A stretch of 64,000 bases of DNA from Rhizobium rhizogenes. Lineage in GTDB: Bacteria; Pseudomonadota; Alphaproteobacteria; Rhizobiales; Rhizobiaceae. Shown here piece after piece: positions 19,066 to 32,773 of the stretch. Both the position numbers and the translations under genes were made by a program. The notes under the pieces were generated by a model. It made no database searches, was not told the origin of the DNA, and saw only the letters and a program-made list of their open reading frames with translations. Location of the stretch: assembly GCF_002005205.3 (NCBI RefSeq), contig NZ_CP019701.2:1426001-1490000 (forward strand), given 5' to 3'. Position 1 is the stretch's first letter. The number at the start of each line of letters is the position of its first letter.

Positions 19066-19139
19066 TGGAGGCCTCGCCCGGAATTGAACCGGGGTACAAG
19101 GATTTGCAGTCCTCTGCGTCACCACTCCGCCACGAGGCC
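19066..19139 (-). tRNA. tRNA-Cys (GCA)
   Basis: On the minus strand the acceptor stem GGCCTCG pairs with CGAGGCC. The anticodon loop CTGCAAA gives anticodon GCA, the T-loop is TTCAATT, and the 3' end TCCA is encoded. The length is 74 nt including CCA. All four stems pair. Confidence 0.97.
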
Positions 19140-25446: not shown

Positions 25447-28400
25447 ATGCGCATTGAACGCCGCTTCACGAAGCCCGGCCAATCGCCTTATGCGGAGATC
25501 GACTTCCGCAAGGCCGTCAGTGAAATCAAGAACCCGGACGGATCGATCGTGTTCCGTCTGGCGGACATCGACGTTCCCGCGCAGTTCAGCCAGGTTGCCA
25601 CCGACGTTCTGGCGCAGAAATATTTCCGCAAGGCCGGCGTGCCGAAGTTCCTGAAGAAGGTCGAGGAAAACGATGTTCCTTCCTTCCTGTGGCGCTCCGT
25701 TCCCGACGAAAAGGCCCTGAAGGATGTGCCGGAAGCCGAGCGTTTCGGCTCCGAAACCGATGCGCGTCAGGTTTTCGACCGTCTGGCTGGCACCTGGGCC
25801 TATTGGGGCTGGAAGGGCAAATATTTCTCGTCCGAAGAAGATGCTCTGGCCTTCCGCGACGAGCTTGCCTACATGCTCGCCACCCAGCGCGTTGCGCCGA
25901 ATTCCCCGCAATGGTTCAACACCGGCCTGCACTGGGCCTATGGCATCGATGGCCCCGGCCAGGGCCATTTCTATGTCGACCCCTTCACCGGCAAGCTGAC
26001 CAAGTCCAAGTCCGCTTACGAACATCCGCAGCCGCATGCCTGCTTCATCCAGTCCGTTGAGGACGACCTCGTCAATGAAGGCGGCATCATGGACCTGTGG
26101 GTGCGTGAAGCGCGCCTGTTCAAATATGGTTCCGGCACCGGCTCCAACTTCTCTTATCTGCGCGGCGAAGGCGAAAAGCTTTCCGGCGGCGGCCGCTCCT
26201 CCGGCCTGATGAGCTTCCTCAAGATCGGCGACCGCGCAGCCGGCGCCATCAAGTCCGGCGGCACGACCCGTCGGGCGGCGAAGATGGTCGTCGTTGACGC
26301 CGATCACCCGGATATCGAAGCCTATATCGACTGGAAGGTGAACGAGGAGCAGAAGGTTGCCGCTCTCGTGACCGGCTCCAAGATCGTCGCCAAGCACCTG
26401 AAGGCGATCATGAAGGCCTGCGTCAACTGCGAGGCTGACAATGGCGATTGCTTCGACCCGGCCAGAAACCCTGCCCTGAAGCGCGAAATCCGCGCTGCCA
26501 AGAAGGACATGGTGCCGGAAAACTACGTCAAGCGCGTTATCCAGTTCGCCGAACAGGGTTACAAGGACATCCAGTTCAAGACCTACGACACGGACTGGGA
26601 TTCGGAAGCCTATCTGACGGTATCCGGCCAGAACTCCAACAACTCCGTATCCTTGAAGGACGACTTCCTGCGCGCTGTCGAAAATGACGGCGACTGGAAC
26701 CTCACCGCCCGCAAGGACGGCAAGGTCATGAAGACGCTGAAGGCCCGCGACCTCTGGGAAAAGATTTCCCACGCCGCCTGGGCATCGGCAGACCCCGGCC
26801 TGCACTTCAACACCACCATGAACGACTGGCACACCTCGCCGGCCGCCGGCCCGATCCGCGCCTCCAACCCGTGCTCGGAATATATGTTCCTCGACGACAC
26901 GGCCTGCAACCTCGCCTCGCTGAACCTTTTGCAGTTCAAGGATCAGGCGACGAAGCGCATCGATATCGCCGATTACGAACATGCCGTTCGTCTGTGGACC
27001 GTCGTGCTCGAAGTGTCGGTCATGATGGCGCAGTTCCCGTCGCGCCAGATCGCCGAACTCTCCTATGAATACCGCACGCTCGGCCTCGGTTACGCCAATA
27101 TCGGCGGCCTCCTGATGTCCTCGGGCATTCCCTATGACAGCGCCGAAGGCCGCGCCATTGCCGGTGCGCTCACCGCCATCATGACCGGCGTTTCCTACGC
27201 CACCTCGGCCGAAATGGCCGGCGAGCTTGGCCCCTTCCCCGGCTTTGCCCCGAACCGCGACAACATGCTGCGCGTCATCCGCAACCACCGCCGCGCCGCT
27301 CACGGCCAGTCGGAAGGTTATGAAGGCCTGTCGGTCAACCCGGTGGCGCTCATCCATGGCGATTGCCCGGATCAGGACCTGATCGCCCATGCCGTCGCCG
27401 CCTGGGACAAGGCGCTAGCGCTCGGCGAGCAGCACGGCTACCGCAACGCCCAGACGACGGTTATCGCGCCGACCGGCACGATCGGCCTCGTGATGGATTG
27501 CGACACGACCGGCATCGAGCCCGACTTCGCGCTGGTGAAGTTCAAGAAGCTCGCCGGCGGCGGTTACTTCAAGATCATCAACCGCGCGGTTCCAGATGCG
27601 CTGCGTTCGCTCGGTTACTCCGAAAGCCAGATCGCCGAGATCGAAGCTTATGCCGTCGGCCATGGCAATCTCAACCAGGCGCCCGGCATCAACCCGTCCA
27701 CGCTGAAGGCCAAGGGCTTCACCGATGAGAAGATCGAGGCCGTCAATGGCGCGCTGAAGAGCGCCTTCGACATCAAGTTCGTCTTCAACCAGTGGACGCT
27801 CGGCGCCGACTTCCTCAAGGAAACGCTGAAGGTTTCCGATGAGCAGCTCTCCGACATGAGCTTCAACCTGCTCGAGCACCTCGGCTTCGGCAAGAAGGAC
27901 ATCGAAGCGGCAAACGTTCACGTCTGCGGCGCGATGACGCTGGAAGGCGCACCGTTCCTGAAGGCCGAGCACCTGCCGGTCTTCGATTGCGCCAACCCCT
28001 GCGGCAAGATCGGCAAGCGTTACCTCTCGGTCGAATCGCATATCCGCATGATGGCAGCGGCACAGCCCTTCATCTCGGGTGCGATCTCCAAGACGATCAA
28101 CATGCCGAACGATGCGACGGTTGAGGATTGCGGCGCAGCCTATATGCTCTCGTGGAAGCTGGCGCTGAAGGCCAACGCCCTTTACCGCGATGGTTCTAAG
28201 CTTTCCCAGCCGCTCAACGCCTCGCTGGTGGAAGATGAGGACGACGAAGACCTGATCGAAGAGCTGATCCAGCAGCCGGCTGCACAGCAGGCCGTGACGA
28301 TCACCGAAAAGATCGTCGAACGCGTCATCGAGCGTGTCTCGCGCGAGCGGGAAAAGCTGCCGAACCGCCGTCAGGGTTACACCCAGAAGGCAACCGTCGG

Positions 28401-29265
28401 CGGTCACAAGGTCTATCTGCGCACCGGCGAATTCGGTGACGGCCGCATCGGCGAAATCTTCATCGACATGCACAAGGAAGGTGCGGCCTTCCGTGCGATG
28501 ATGAACAACTTCGCCATCGCCATTTCGCTCGGCCTGCAATATGGCGTGCCGCTGGAAGAATATGTGGAGGCCTTCACCTTCACCAAGTTCGAACCGGCCG
28601 GCATGGTGCAGGGCAACGACGCGATCAAGAACGCCACGTCGATCCTCGACTACGTGTTCCGCGAACTCGCCGTCTCCTATCTCGGCCGCCACGATCTGGC
28701 CCATGTCGATACGTCGGATTTCTCCAACACGGCGCTCGGCAAGGGTATCCAGGAAGGCAAGACCAACCTCGTTTCCACCGGCTGGACCCGCGGTTACAAG
28801 CCGACGCTGGTTTCCAGCAATGGCGGCGAACGGTCGTCTTCCGAGCCGAAGGGCTCGGCAACGGCCACCCCTGCCCGTGGTTCCGCCAACGTCACCTCCT
28901 TCGCCGGCTCCGCCGCCCGCAAGCTGGAACCGACGGTCTCCATCGCAACCTCCGAAATCGTCTCCTTCAAGCGGGACTATGAGGAGCGCGCCAGGGAACT
29001 GGCCGAAGAAATCGCCGAGGAAGTCATCGACGACGTCGCCCAGGAATCCCAGCAGACGGCCACCGCCCTCTTCTCCGACAAGGCCGCCGCCGACGCTGCA
29101 TCGGCCAAGACGGAAGCCAAGAAGGTGGAAAACGAACGCCGCATGCGCTCGATTGCACAAGGCTATACCGGCAACATGTGCTCGGAATGCCAGAACTTCA
29201 CGATGGTGCGGAACGGCACCTGCGAGAAGTGCGATACTTGCGGTGCGACGAGCGGTTGCAGCTGA
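25447..29265 (+). CDS. nrdJ: Class II (B12-dependent) ribonucleotide reductase
   Basis: The enzyme reduces ribonucleotides to deoxyribonucleotides using adenosylcobalamin, with or without oxygen. The protein is 1272 aa, the long alphaproteobacterial form. Visible marks are [11 protein letters not shown] (about 155-165), the barrel segment [20 protein letters not shown] (about 475-494), the thioredoxin-like [18 protein letters not shown] loop, and the catalytic-domain cysteine in [21 protein letters not shown]-type region follows ([20 protein letters not shown]). A C-terminal zinc-finger-like CSECQNFT...[13 protein letters not shown] carries the redox cysteines that regenerate the active site. 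GAGGACAGGAAACC precedes the ATG. An AIPR gene begins 10 bases past the stop. Confidence 0.97.
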
Positions 29266-29274
29266 GGAGATTGA

Positions 29275-30966
29275 ATGGTTACTAAGCTGGTTCCGCCAAC
29301 CCCTGCGACAATCATTGACTTCGGTGTTGTAGAAACAGGCATAAAAGAGCGTGAGACCTTTCAGGTCTCACGCGGATTGGCTTTTGCGAAGCTGGTTACG
29401 GAAACCATCTTTGGTGTTCCCGCAAAAGAAGTTGATGAACACATTGTGGATGGCGGAGCAGATCGAGGTATAGACATCATATACATCGATCACAACAACA
29501 AGATTATAAATATCGGCTCCTGCAAAACCGTTCTTGATTTTAGAAATTCCCACAAATTCTTCCCCGGGGAAGAAATAGATAAAATAATATCATTCATCGA
29601 CGATGTTTTACTACACAGAGATGAGATAATATCTAGTTGCAACGGTCGACTGGCAGCCAAAATCCGTGAAATATGGGAAATTTTTTCAACTGAAGCTTAC
29701 GAAGTAGCTGTTCACCTATTCTCCAATAAATCAACTTTACCGACCGACGCAAGAGAACGCTTATCAACAGCACTGAATCGTCATAATGTTTTACTGTTCG
29801 AATACGGCTTGTTTGAGCTTTCTCATGGGCTAGTTAAGGCAACTAAACCAAAATTTAAAAAGACGCTGAAGGGATGTGAATGCTCATCTGCTCCCGTCGA
29901 AGATTTAGGACGTCGCGCAATTATGGCGCGTGTAAGCCTAGAAGATGCTGCTAGATTTCTCACGGGAGAAAACGGCGGTTTCGATGAGCGTCTGGTTTGG
30001 CAAAATGTCAGGTATTTTCTCGGAATAGAGAACGAAGTTAACCGAGAAATAAAAGCTACTCTTCTGAATAGTCCTGTAGAGGATTTTTGGTATCTAAATT
30101 CCGGCCTCACTATTGTCTGTGAACAGATCTTGTCCAATCCAAATGGGTTCCATCCGATTCACATGGTAAACCCTCAGATTGTAAACGGCTGTCAGACAGC
30201 AACTGTTATTCAGAGTGTCAGCATCGGAACGATGCGAAACCTGAAAGGTGGCTTCATTCAGGTCAAAATAATTGAAACTAAAAGCCCCGAGTTTGTTGAG
30301 CGTATTGCGTTAGCGAGCAACACTCAAAGTCGGATTTTAAGCAGAGACCTGCGAGCTCACGATAATTTTCAACTCCAGATCGCTGAATGCTTGCGTTCAC
30401 TGGGATATTTTTACTGCAGAAAACGGGGTGAGAGAAGCATAGCGACCGGACTTGAGGTGCTAGATTCGGCTCGAGTAGGACAGTTGATGCTCGCATATGT
30501 TTGTGGGGAACCTACAAAAAGCAAGACTAATTCAAACGAAGTTTTCGGAGACCTTTATCACGAGGCTTTCAATCCTCTTGCCGTAACGCCAAACATCATA
30601 GTTACTGCACATGAATGCTATAAAGAGATCGAGAAACGGAGGCAGCAAGCGCTTCACTGGCAATCGTCGGTATCTAAAAATTCATATGAAGAATCTTGGA
30701 TAATCGAAGGCCATTTCCATGTGTTGTTCGTAGTTGGAGAGCTTTTGCGAAGAAAAAGAGGCAACTTAGGCCAAACCGATGATGCGCTGGCATTGTTAGA
30801 TTCTGCCATATCAACTGTTCAGCAATTCGTGCTTCAACATAAAGGTATAGCGAGCTACAGGCTGTTCCGATTGACCTCGTCCAGAGAGGCAATTCTAAAG
30901 CTCTTGGACAGCTCCAATAGCGATCCTAATTTCTCATATCCAAAGCAGTTATCTCTCGACATATAA
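29275..30966 (+). CDS. AIPR-family putative abortive-infection protein
   Basis: AIPR (abortive infection phage resistance) proteins are linked to phage defence by family name and genomic association; the mechanism is not well known. The protein is 563 aa. The N-terminal part has a restriction-nuclease-like motif, HIVDGGADRGIDIIYID (about 56-72), followed by IINIGSCKT with Lys84, resembling a PD-(D/E)XK site with Ser-Cys-Lys replacing the usual Q/E-x-K. The AIPR core is DFWYLNSGLTIVC (about 271-283) and NPQIVNGCQTATVIQ (about 299-313). Codon use is clearly AT-richer than the neighbours, a sign of transfer. Its GAGGAG ribosome site overlaps the nrdJ stop, so it could be read through from nrdJ. 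A perfect 25-base hairpin lies in codons 25-33. Confidence 0.85.
   Translation: MVTKLVPPTPATIIDFGVVETGIKERETFQVSRGLAFAKLVTETIFGVPAKEVDEHIVDGGADRGIDIIYIDHNNKIINIGSCKTVLDFRNSHKFFPGEEIDKIISFIDDVLLHRDEIISSCNGRLAAKIREIWEIFSTEAYEVAVHLFSNKSTLPTDARERLSTALNRHNVLLFEYGLFELSHGLVKATKPKFKKTLKGCECSSAPVEDLGRRAIMARVSLEDAARFLTGENGGFDERLVWQNVRYFLGIENEVNREIKATLLNSPVEDFWYLNSGLTIVCEQILSNPNGFHPIHMVNPQIVNGCQTATVIQSVSIGTMRNLKGGFIQVKIIETKSPEFVERIALASNTQSRILSRDLRAHDNFQLQIAECLRSLGYFYCRKRGERSIATGLEVLDSARVGQLMLAYVCGEPTKSKTNSNEVFGDLYHEAFNPLAVTPNIIVTAHECYKEIEKRRQQALHWQSSVSKNSYEESWIIEGHFHVLFVVGELLRRKRGNLGQTDDALALLDSAISTVQQFVLQHKGIASYRLFRLTSSREAILKLLDSSNSDPNFSYPKQLSLDI
29349..29373 (+). repeat. Perfect hairpin inside the AIPR reading frame
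   Basis: GCGTGAGACCT-TTC-AGGTCTCACGC is an 11-bp perfect inverted repeat with a 3-base loop, 74 bases after the ATG. It is GC-rich within an AT-rich gene. It could fold in the mRNA or act as a dyad-symmetric protein site. Confidence 0.8.
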
Positions 30967-31104
30967 GAAGCGCAAGAGCATCCGGCATCTGCAAGACTAG
31001 GAGAAGCCCTTAGCAAGCCGGATCAACCGGCCCGCGCCTATCTGAAAGTGATCGCCGTCGATCCGGAAGGCACAGCGGCCGCCCTTCGTAAAGGCGCGGC
31101 CTGA
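30967..31104 (+). pseudogene. Startless C-terminal gene remnant after the AIPR gene
   Basis: Directly after the AIPR stop, and in the same frame, 45 codons stay open to the TGA at 31102. The last 35 or so (ARLGEALSKPDQPARAYLKV, then IAVDPEGTAAALRKGAA) have GC-rich host-like codon use and read like a genuine protein C-terminus. There is no start codon with a ribosome site. I infer that the 5' part of an older gene was lost when the AIPR gene was inserted. The parent family is not recognised. Confidence 0.55.
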
Positions 31105-31110
31105 TCCACC

Positions 31111-32436
31111 TCACCCCATAAAATCCAGCAGCAGCTTCACATTCAGCACCGCAATCACCACCGCAATCAGCCACGCAAAAGCCGAGAGCCAGAGCGGCGC
31201 TTTCAGTGCGCCCATCTTGGCCTTGTCGGCGGTGAACATCACCAGCGGGAAGACCGCGAAGGAGAGTTGCAGGCTCAGCACCACCTGCGTCAGGATCAAG
31301 AGTTCCGCCGTGCCGCTATCGCCATAGAAGACGGTGACGGCGGCGGCGGGGACGATGGCGATGGCGCGGGTGATGAGACGGCGCAGCCAGGGGGCGAGCC
31401 GCATCTTGAGGAAACCCTCCATCACGATCTGGCCGGCAAGCGTTGCCGTGACGGTGGAGTTGATGCCGCAGCACAACAGCGCCACGCCGAAGAGCGTCGG
31501 CGCAATCGCAAGGCCAAGCAGCGGCGCGAGCAGATTATGGGCCTCGCCGAGTTCGGCGACATTGGTCTGCCCCGTCTTGTTGAAGGTCGCCGCCGCGAGG
31601 ATAAGGATCGAGGCGTTGATGAGGAGCGCGAACATCAGCGCAATGGTGGAATCGAGCGTCGCGAATTTCAGCGCCTCGCGTTTTTCGGCAATCGTTTCGC
31701 CGATTTCGCGGGTCTGCACGATGCCCGAATGCAGATAGAGATTATGCGGCATGACGGTGGCGCCGAGAATGCCGAGCGCCAGATAGAGCATGTCCGGATT
31801 GGTGACGATCTCCGTCGTCGGCGCAAATCCGAGGATCACCTGCCCCCAGTCGGGATCGGCGAGCGCCACCTGAATGGCGAAACACACGGCGATGACGCCC
31901 AGCAGCGTGATGACCAGCGCCTCCACCCAGCGGAAGCCGAGCTTCTGCAGATAAAGGATCAGGAACACATCGAGCGCGGTGATGAGAACGCCGAGTTCGA
32001 GCGGAATGCCGAAAATGAGGTTGAGGCCGATGGCCGTGCCGATCACCTCGGCGATATCGGTGGCGATGATGGCGATTTCCGCCAGCAGCCACAGCACCAT
32101 GGCTACGGGTTTCGGATAGGCGTCACGACAGGCCTGGGCGAGATCGCGTCCGGAGGCGATCGCCAGACGGGCGCAGAGCGATTGCAGCACGATCGCCATG
32201 ATGTTCGAGACCAGCGCGACGGTGAGCAGCGTATAGCCGAACCTTGAGCCGCCGGCGAGCGAGGTCGCCCAGTTTCCCGGATCCATGTAACCGACCGCAA
32301 CGAGATAGCCGGGGCCGAAAAACGCCATCGCCCGGCGAAACGTGCCGGCATTCGGCTTGACCCTGATCGAACCGTGCACGTCGGACAGCGACAGGTCGTC
32401 GCCATTCCGCCGCCATCCAAAGACAGGCTTGTCCAT
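31111..32436 (-). CDS. mntH: Nramp-type manganese/iron transporter
   Basis: MntH is a proton-coupled importer of Mn(II) in the inner membrane. The protein is 441 aa with about 11 membrane segments. The metal-site motif DPGNWAT lies in segment 1 (about 52-58), with [10 protein letters not shown] in segment 6 (about 226-235) and the family segment [13 protein letters not shown]. The ATG at 32436 is preferred over a TTG five codons upstream. A candidate Mur operator lies 38 bases upstream. In Agrobacterium and other rhizobia mntH is repressed by Mur with manganese, which fits. The gene ends seven bases from a gene remnant that follows the AIPR islet. Confidence 0.94.
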
Positions 32437-32773
32437 TCTCTGAACTTTCAAATGGGAGGCAATTTAATGCAATTGCAAATCATTCGCATAAACAGAACAG
32501 GCTGGCAAGCGGGCTTTTGGCCCACGCGCCATCACAGGCCATTGCCGGGCGTTTTGCCGGCGGGCCTTGCGGCAGAGGATACCATTTCCCGCGCCAGACA
32601 GGCGAGCCATGTCGGAAGCAGCCGGATCAAGCACACGCAGGATGGCCGGAGCGTGCACCATCCCGCAGCAGGCTTCCGTCTGGCGACTGCACCCGCCCAT
32701 TGACAGTTGCGATGGCGTGCCGTGTACACAGAGGCACGATACACATCAGGCATATTTCAGAAGGAGCAGCCGC
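32437..32773. other. Divergent promoter region, mntH / VOC gene
   Basis: A 337-bp region contains the mntH operator candidate at its left end and the AAGGAG site of the VOC gene at its right. No small gene with a ribosome site was seen. Confidence 0.55.
32474..32488 (-). promoter_or_regulatory. Candidate Mur/manganese-responsive operator of mntH
   Basis: TGCAAAT-C-ATTCGCA is a 15-bp palindrome with one mismatched pair, in an AT-rich promoter 38 bases before the mntH start. TGCAAAT/ATTTGCA half-sites are what I recall for rhizobial Mur (Fur-like manganese regulator) boxes. Confidence 0.5.

Follow-up and report, generated by a model that had tools for sequence, protein, structure and literature searches.

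We analysed a 64,000-nucleotide stretch of Rhizobium rhizogenes DNA (contig NZ_CP019701.2, positions 1,426,001 to 1,490,000; hereafter the window) in which an AT-rich gene of the AIPR/AbiU family follows nrdJ, the gene for a ribonucleotide reductase. With moderate confidence, we regard it as a gene, probably for phage defence, occupying a cargo site directly behind nrdJ. Genome comparison showed that its closer relatives in other genera mostly lie behind nrdJ as well, usually as its next cistron and almost overlapping it, and that the site within the genus of the window holds small modules that are exchangeable, several being defence systems. The site is made up as follows, in positions of the window unless a locus is named.

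25447-29265, plus strand: nrdJ, class II (B12-dependent) ribonucleotide reductase, 1272 amino acids (NCBIfam NF005736, 2377.9 bits, cut-off 1737); it forms the left border and presumably supplies the transcript.
29264-29269, plus strand: GAGGAG, a ribosome-site-like motif read in the sequence, overlapping the nrdJ stop codon.
29275-30966, plus strand: AIPR/AbiU-family gene, AT-rich, an open reading frame (ORF) of 563 amino acids recognised by Pfam and PADLOC matches and by composition.
31012-31104, plus strand: remnant of the 3' end of a helix-turn-helix (HTH) antitoxin gene, which in relatives is paired with BrnT (89% identity to the gene end in locus L047 over 102 bp).
31111-32451, minus strand: mntH-like transporter gene, right border; an ORF whose name is taken from the original prediction.
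L047:1018-1615, and the same place in L057, L058, L060 and L063: BrnT plus HTH antitoxin pair (Pfam was run on one of these).

The AIPR protein matched Pfam AIPR (PF10592) with an E value of 4.7e-36 and 125.4 bits, above the cut-off of 25, residues 243-388 aligning with profile positions 3-156 of 308. The PADLOC AbiU profile was matched over most of its length (9.9e-54; residues 35-493, profile positions 23-478 of 537). The protein itself is a fresh member of an already known kind. Its gene had the lowest guanine-plus-cytosine content (GC, 0.435) and the lowest GC at third codon positions (GC3, 0.414) among 50 picked window ORFs of at least 120 amino acids. The remaining ORFs averaged 0.614 (standard deviation 0.023) and 0.717 (standard deviation 0.062), respectively, which places the gene at z values of -7.6 and -4.9. 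Composition thus supports a foreign origin, in agreement with the original prediction, made from this DNA alone, that this is the clearest foreign gene in the window, AT-rich amid GC-rich genes. That prediction also had the islet reach position 31104; the AIPR frame stops at 30966, and the final 100 bases or so are the tail of the antitoxin gene. Its observation that no transposase, integrase or tRNA is near was borne out, since the interval from nrdJ to the mntH-like gene contains neither a transposase nor an integrase and the one tRNA found in the window, tRNA-Cys at 19066-19139, lies about 10 kb from AIPR. The site lacks the combination of an internal recombinase and direct repeats at both ends that marks an integrative element; between nrdJ and the antitoxin remnant we found AIPR alone and no repeat of the nrdJ end.

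We surveyed AIPR loci in named genomes (best 80 of 251). In 11 of these loci the fetched stretch also contained nrdJ, always upstream of AIPR and in the same orientation. These 11 loci belong to Pararhizobium, Mesorhizobium (two), Kaistia, Labrenzia, Rhodoblastus, Bradyrhizobium (two, with a single M78 gene between nrdJ and AIPR) and three metagenome-assembled genomes: a Bosea, an alphaproteobacterial one (34% identity) and a Rhodopseudomonas (35%). When the same 80 loci were restricted to relatives of 44-80% identity with upstream sequence, which excluded L093, 9 of 11 were behind nrdJ, or 10 of 12 including the window. The first exception was Microvirga VF16 (L094), in which the AIPR gene (52%) is preceded by genes for Mu-transposase-C, TniB and TniQ instead of nrdJ. 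The second was Rhizobium RCAM05350 (L095, 9989-11680), with an AIPR gene of 80% identity, many stops in mid-frame and no nrdJ near. The context in L094 (5015-9551) raises the possibility that a Tn7-like element carries the AIPR lineage. In L170 (genome G146), a distant AIPR gene (27%) is encoded close to the nrdJ end and in the opposite orientation, apparently having arrived separately at this same location.

Spacing was taken as the distance between the stop codon of nrdJ and the most probable start of AIPR, which we chose ourselves and which was mostly TTG. The gap was 9 bp in the window and 18, 10, 13, 10, 14, -1 and -1 bp in L085-L089, L097 and L098, respectively. Gaps of -1 to 18 bp were found in 6 of the 9 closer nrdJ-linked relatives, and with L097 and the window in 8 loci; wider gaps were seen in Rhodoblastus (at least 124 bp) and in L104 (259 bp).

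Within the genus, nrdJ was found in 39 of 39 genomes and AIPR-family genes, at any position, in 6, the window included. The original prediction would have been refuted by an AIPR gene of host-like composition at this site in all relatives. Behind nrdJ, no AIPR match was found in any of the 38 other genomes (read for 2.2 kb downstream in one and for 5.0-5.2 kb in the rest), and its composition is unlike that of the host. Downstream of nrdJ, the mntH-like gene was located in 18 of the 39 genomes, window included, to which the mntH-bounded counts refer; the other 21 had no mntH hit in the stretch read. The nrdJ-mntH interval, proposed earlier as the place to look for variable content, indeed varies: its length is 1849 bp in the window and ranges from 725 to 2087 bp in the other 17 genomes, the contents being unrelated. 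A control gap upstream of nrdJ measured 665-842 bp in 20 of 20 genomes, including the window.

In 5 of these 18 genomes, the BrnT toxin and HTH antitoxin fill a nrdJ-mntH gap of 725-732 bp; in L047, Pfam identified the antitoxin as HTH_3 and the toxin as BrnT_toxin (2.6e-27). We compared the L047 antitoxin gene with the 13 non-BrnT intervals, including that of the window, and observed matches of 29-367 bp in 10, the three shortest of which (29, 38 and 45 bp) are weak; none was detectable in the L049, L052 and L053 intervals. At the window site, AIPR evidently displaced a BrnT/antitoxin pair, as judged from the sequence left behind. Antitoxin remnants of varying length persist in 10 of 13 non-BrnT intervals, so cargo appears to have come in on the nrdJ side, eroding the pair to differing depths.

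The close AIPR lineage was sporadic: in each of three genera a single genome carried it, out of 39, 14 and 45, respectively. NrdJ and AIPR identities were correlated (Spearman 0.59 over 66 pairs, which are not independent), and the two trees were mostly concordant, with L104/L097 as a clear exception. Given this agreement together with the rarity inside genera, we read the pattern as transfer mostly between relatives. The correlation and the largely agreeing trees would also suit an old nrdJ-AIPR unit that was co-inherited and lost many times and is no mobile arrival. We consider this quite improbable: so few genomes carry the pair, AIPR is AT-rich against its surroundings, L097/L104 disrupt the tree agreement, and the BrnT-pair remnant indicates replacement at the window site. 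A plasmid or phage source of the close lineage was not found, the best plasmid hit reaching 26.5% and the best phage hit 29.4%. Viral contigs gave AIPR matches of 24-30% in 15 loci. AIPR homologues (29%) in a P2-like phage lie between replication and packaging genes and were annotated by the depositors as preventing superinfection.

The contents of the site in the genus were then examined, for this interval alone and by scanning representative ORFs. Among 40 chosen ORFs, 39 were scanned with Pfam (all except L049:1201-1581) and 29 with PADLOC. Known or candidate defence systems were present behind nrdJ in at least 10 of the 39 genomes, counting AIPR in the window.

Pycsar: L054, cyclase (1.9e-184) plus effectors; L077, TIR effector; L079, assigned by clustering with them.
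CBASS: L066, cyclase, E1-E2 and SAVED-2TM; L080, patatin effector and a cyclase clustering with the L066 cyclase.
PD-T7-4: L064.
PDC-S33: L051.
PDC-M34AB: L056.
PDC-M53AB: L053.

BrnT-cluster genes were found behind nrdJ in 7 of the 39 genomes. Several cargoes matched nothing, and others looked ordinary, namely, an MFS transporter (L059), a DUF4432 protein (L050) and a TetR regulator (L072). With constant flanks and exchangeable, defence-bearing contents, the nrdJ site has the properties of a defence hotspot. The one-gene islet of the original prediction is thus no lone event, since the site hosts other defence systems and the AIPR lineage is usually behind nrdJ elsewhere. Literature listings drawn from open-access PubMed Central contained no nrdJ defence hotspot, and the listed paper that names nrdJ deals with a haloarchaeal virus; as far as these listings show, an nrdJ-coupled address common to several genera and shared with other defence cargo is a new form of defence hotspot.

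The junction itself was examined for signs of co-transcription. The TGA of nrdJ ends at 29265 and is followed by GGAGATTGA and by the AIPR ATG at 29275. The ribosome site over the nrdJ stop was as predicted originally, and the two codons are separated by 9 bases. No terminator-like hairpin was found in the nrdJ-AIPR gap of the window or of the 11 other nrdJ-AIPR loci. After nrdJ in the genus, such a hairpin was found at 24 of 39 sites, compared to 9 of 195 shuffles, a comparison to be read with the scant space that short nrdJ-AIPR gaps offer for a hairpin. A promoter scan of 28900-31400 gave 3 matches, all on the minus strand, which is the level of chance. An NrdR-like pattern matched 3 times in the window (6.5 expected), never close to nrdJ, and an Rfam scan of the window returned tRNA-Cys only, with nothing near nrdJ at threshold. 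The gap of only 9 bp, a ribosome site that covers the nrdJ stop and the missing terminator suggest that AIPR may ride on the nrdJ transcript. The earlier idea that AIPR exploits nrdJ transcription is plausible, the hairpin-free gap and the tight spacing recurring in relatives.

The nrdJ 3' end might instead be a merely permissive landing place, with AIPR independent of nrdJ and gaining a promoter at most; a long conserved recombination anchor would then explain the recurrence. This is a real possibility, to which we give somewhat less than even weight. It accords with the many unrelated cargoes at the site, mostly behind a terminator-like hairpin, and with the presence there of ordinary genes such as the L059 transporter and the L050 DUF4432 gene. 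Against it stand the near-overlapping nrdJ-AIPR spacing maintained in 8 loci and the M78 genes that are likewise tightly spaced behind nrdJ in L333, L337, L091 and L092.

A possible mode of arrival was suggested by Labrenzia R4_2 (L089), in which AIPR is followed by a second copy, at 97%, of a 146-column stretch from the nrdJ end, 114 bp of it being identical. The tail copy adjoining the native flank is the far one, and in the near copy the final codons differ but specify the same residues. In two relatives without this AIPR behind nrdJ, G731 (nrdJ piece 97.5% identical) and G719 (93.4%), the native nrdJ end continues into the native flank; in G731, other DNA of about 2.8 kb begins some 110 bp past the nrdJ end. 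The R4_2 layout would be the expected product of a single crossover by a circle bearing AIPR and an nrdJ tail. Weighing against so clean a crossover, G719, which has no AIPR behind nrdJ, also has the first half of the altered near tail of R4_2. No duplicated nrdJ tail was found at the window site, so that the tail model would extend to the window AIPR by analogy only. At the 38 other genus sites, nrdJ-tail repeats were limited to a 23-bp match (E value 0.009, L058), which we took as chance. The last 900 bases of nrdJ, compared with 8 relatives, showed patchy identity and no clear recombination breakpoint.

Across the order, a 49-residue NrdJ tail query hit 365 of 397 genomes and was present in two or more copies in 14. 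The second copy ends 0.7-2.4 kb downstream on the same strand in 6 of the 14 (G443, G689, G545, G640, G658 and G633) and lies about 4 kb on in G470, provided that the contig is circular. In G539 (L341-L343), tail copies with an identical downstream flank sit at several contig ends, a pattern suggestive of a recent duplication that broke the assembly. The remaining 6 of the 14 comprised contig-edge copies (G366, G370), second nrdJ-like frames (G655, G678) and ambiguous cases (G475, G506). Between the tail copies we found M78 peptidases in G443, G689, G658 and G470, in the last together with transposase-like ORFs, and no clear gene in G545 and G640. In G633 (L338, 4036-5331, minus strand), a SLATT membrane protein and a ThsB-TIR protein, forming a Thoeris-like pair, lie between nrdJ and the second tail copy.

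M78/ImmA-type peptidases directly behind nrdJ (L337:3653-4309 and L333:3659-4351, minus strand; L091:9063-9770 and L092:9109-9798, plus strand) end in an NrdJ-like cysteine tail, which is a near-copy in L337. Among M78 peptidase homologues (best 120 of 131), CxxC...CxxC occurred near the end in 103 of 120 and a strict NrdJ-like ending in 17 of 120. The cysteine tail could be a decoy, a docking piece or a recombination scar. A broader proposal, which taken as a whole is unlikely to hold, is that the nrdJ 3' end is the protein-gene counterpart of a tRNA attachment site. Small defence modules would move as a gene plus an nrdJ-tail copy, recombining in the tail without a recombinase of their own. 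At least two of the resident families, the AIPR lineage and the M78/ImmA-type peptidases with the near-copy of the cysteine tail, would be tightly coupled to nrdJ because they monitor the reductase or what it produces while phages attack, and the peptidase tail would act as a decoy or docking piece.

We next considered what the AIPR protein might do. A structure model suggested two domains in it, and a palindrome was observed within the frame.

29308-29850, plus strand: predicted PD-(D/E)XK nuclease domain, FokI/MspJI-like, residues about 12-192, with D63, D67 and K84 (structure model).
29890-30336, plus strand: predicted ParB/Srx-fold domain, residues about 206-354 (structure model).
29349-29373, plus strand: 11-bp perfect inverted repeat inside the AIPR frame.

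The fold assignments rest on a second look with VIA-align and on conserved residues. Foldseek alone returned nothing at an E value of 0.001 or below for the whole model or the middle domain, and searching solved structures by sequence, with the alignment of the family as query, gave no hits. The PD-(D/E)XK active site has the motif D...(D/E/Q)xK. In the AIPR protein listing (best 120 of 542), of which 96 near full-length proteins were retained (set A1), D63, D67 and K84 were invariant in 96 of 96, and position 82 was S in 64, Q in 21, N in 6 and T in 5; a further set (A2) in the residue comparison consisted of 63 of 74 reference proteins. The model has a predicted PD-(D/E)XK fold, and SspE was among the fold matches. 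At residues 12-192, the fold search listed PD-(D/E)XK nucleases and no HEPN row, although an unlisted family may still fit. This differs from the N-terminal HEPN domain given to AIPR proteins in 2012, according to the accessible part of that study (PMC3506569). No test of AIPR nuclease appears in the accessible parts of PMC3506569, PMC3710099, PMC2292703, PMC8546572, PMC9122126, PMC12704722, PMC10853773 and PMC13251355. Judging from the model and by analogy with SspE, we infer that AIPR may be a nucleoside triphosphate (NTP)-gated DNA nuclease. Its chemistry, called little known in the original prediction, is narrowed to a predicted nuclease fold and a putative ParB-like domain.

The inverted repeat had no copy elsewhere in the window. 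Among 500 synonymous recodings, none contained a repeat as stable in the window, Pararhizobium L085 or Mesorhizobium L087, and 16 did in Mesorhizobium L086. In L089, which has a different layout, the count was also 0 of 500; the other seven loci gave 47-365 of 500. In the nearest relatives, the repeat is retained through synonymous changes on both arms. It could serve as an operator or an mRNA hairpin. This palindrome, conserved in close relatives, would suit a reading in which the nuclease fold of AIPR is dead and the protein serves as a regulator or decoy, a DndB-like NTP-dependent DNA-binding repressor that perhaps acts on the palindrome in its own gene. Ser at position 82 fits such a protein, as does the HHpred likeness of DndB to AIPR mentioned in the accessible part of PMC8546572; the portions available of two other articles describe DndB as a ParB superfamily member (PMC10853773) and as an ATP-dependent repressor (PMC12704722). 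We regard this reading as rather unlikely, since a dead domain would not need D63, D67 and K84 to be invariant.

For an active, nrdJ-linked defence gene, the reading we prefer, the following mechanism can be proposed. AIPR would be made from the nrdJ transcript, with its translation coupled to that of nrdJ. The protein would act as a ParB-like NTP-binding switch with an N-terminal PD-(D/E)XK nuclease. A phage-linked cue, perhaps phage DNA or an altered nucleotide pool, would trigger NTP binding or hydrolysis, and this step would license the nuclease to cut phage or host DNA, by analogy with SspE. The gene would spread through recombination, with the conserved 3' end of nrdJ as the anchor and a loose right end, and incoming AIPR would overwrite resident genes, at this site the BrnT/antitoxin pair of which the remnant is seen.

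Compared with known systems, the window gene shares with AIPR (PF10592) and PADLOC AbiU (AbiU1) the profile match over most of its length, a sporadic distribution, foreign composition and a single-gene layout. It differs in being the next cistron of nrdJ and not part of a restriction-modification operon. SspE, a DUF262/ParB-like GTPase with an HNH nuclease, likewise joins a ParB-like switch to a nuclease, as is predicted for AIPR; the AIPR nuclease is of another fold and N-terminal, and phosphorothioation genes are not adjacent (for the SspE mechanism, see the accessible part of PMC13251355). In contrast to DndB, the window AIPR has no adjacent dnd genes and has an extra predicted nuclease domain. 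The match to MzaE of the MZA system was weak (36.1 bits, far under the cut-off of 1050), and no MZA partner genes are adjacent. Core defence hotspots, such as those of Pseudomonas aeruginosa, reportedly combine a fixed chromosomal address with exchangeable defence cargo, as the nrdJ site does. The nrdJ site differs from them in that its border is the nrdJ stop codon, its modules consist of one to a few genes, and nrdJ-tail copies delimit some modules in other genera.

The 3' side of nrdJ thus offers a fixed, searchable address for defence genes across a large bacterial order, and AIPR proteins become tied to a testable chemistry, that of a putative NTP-switched nuclease. It also becomes worth asking why defence genes should be attached to an enzyme supplying DNA precursors, on which DNA phages depend. 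Moreover, the tail duplications provide a starting point for explaining how single-gene modules could be mobile in the absence of an integrase.

Two minor observations were made at these loci. Residues 296-367 of NrdJ (26332-26547) gave a weak YebC/TACO1-like match, under curated cut-offs. In Kaistia (L088:12169-12603, plus strand), a RES-domain gene lies downstream of AIPR and is perhaps part of a toxin-antitoxin pair.
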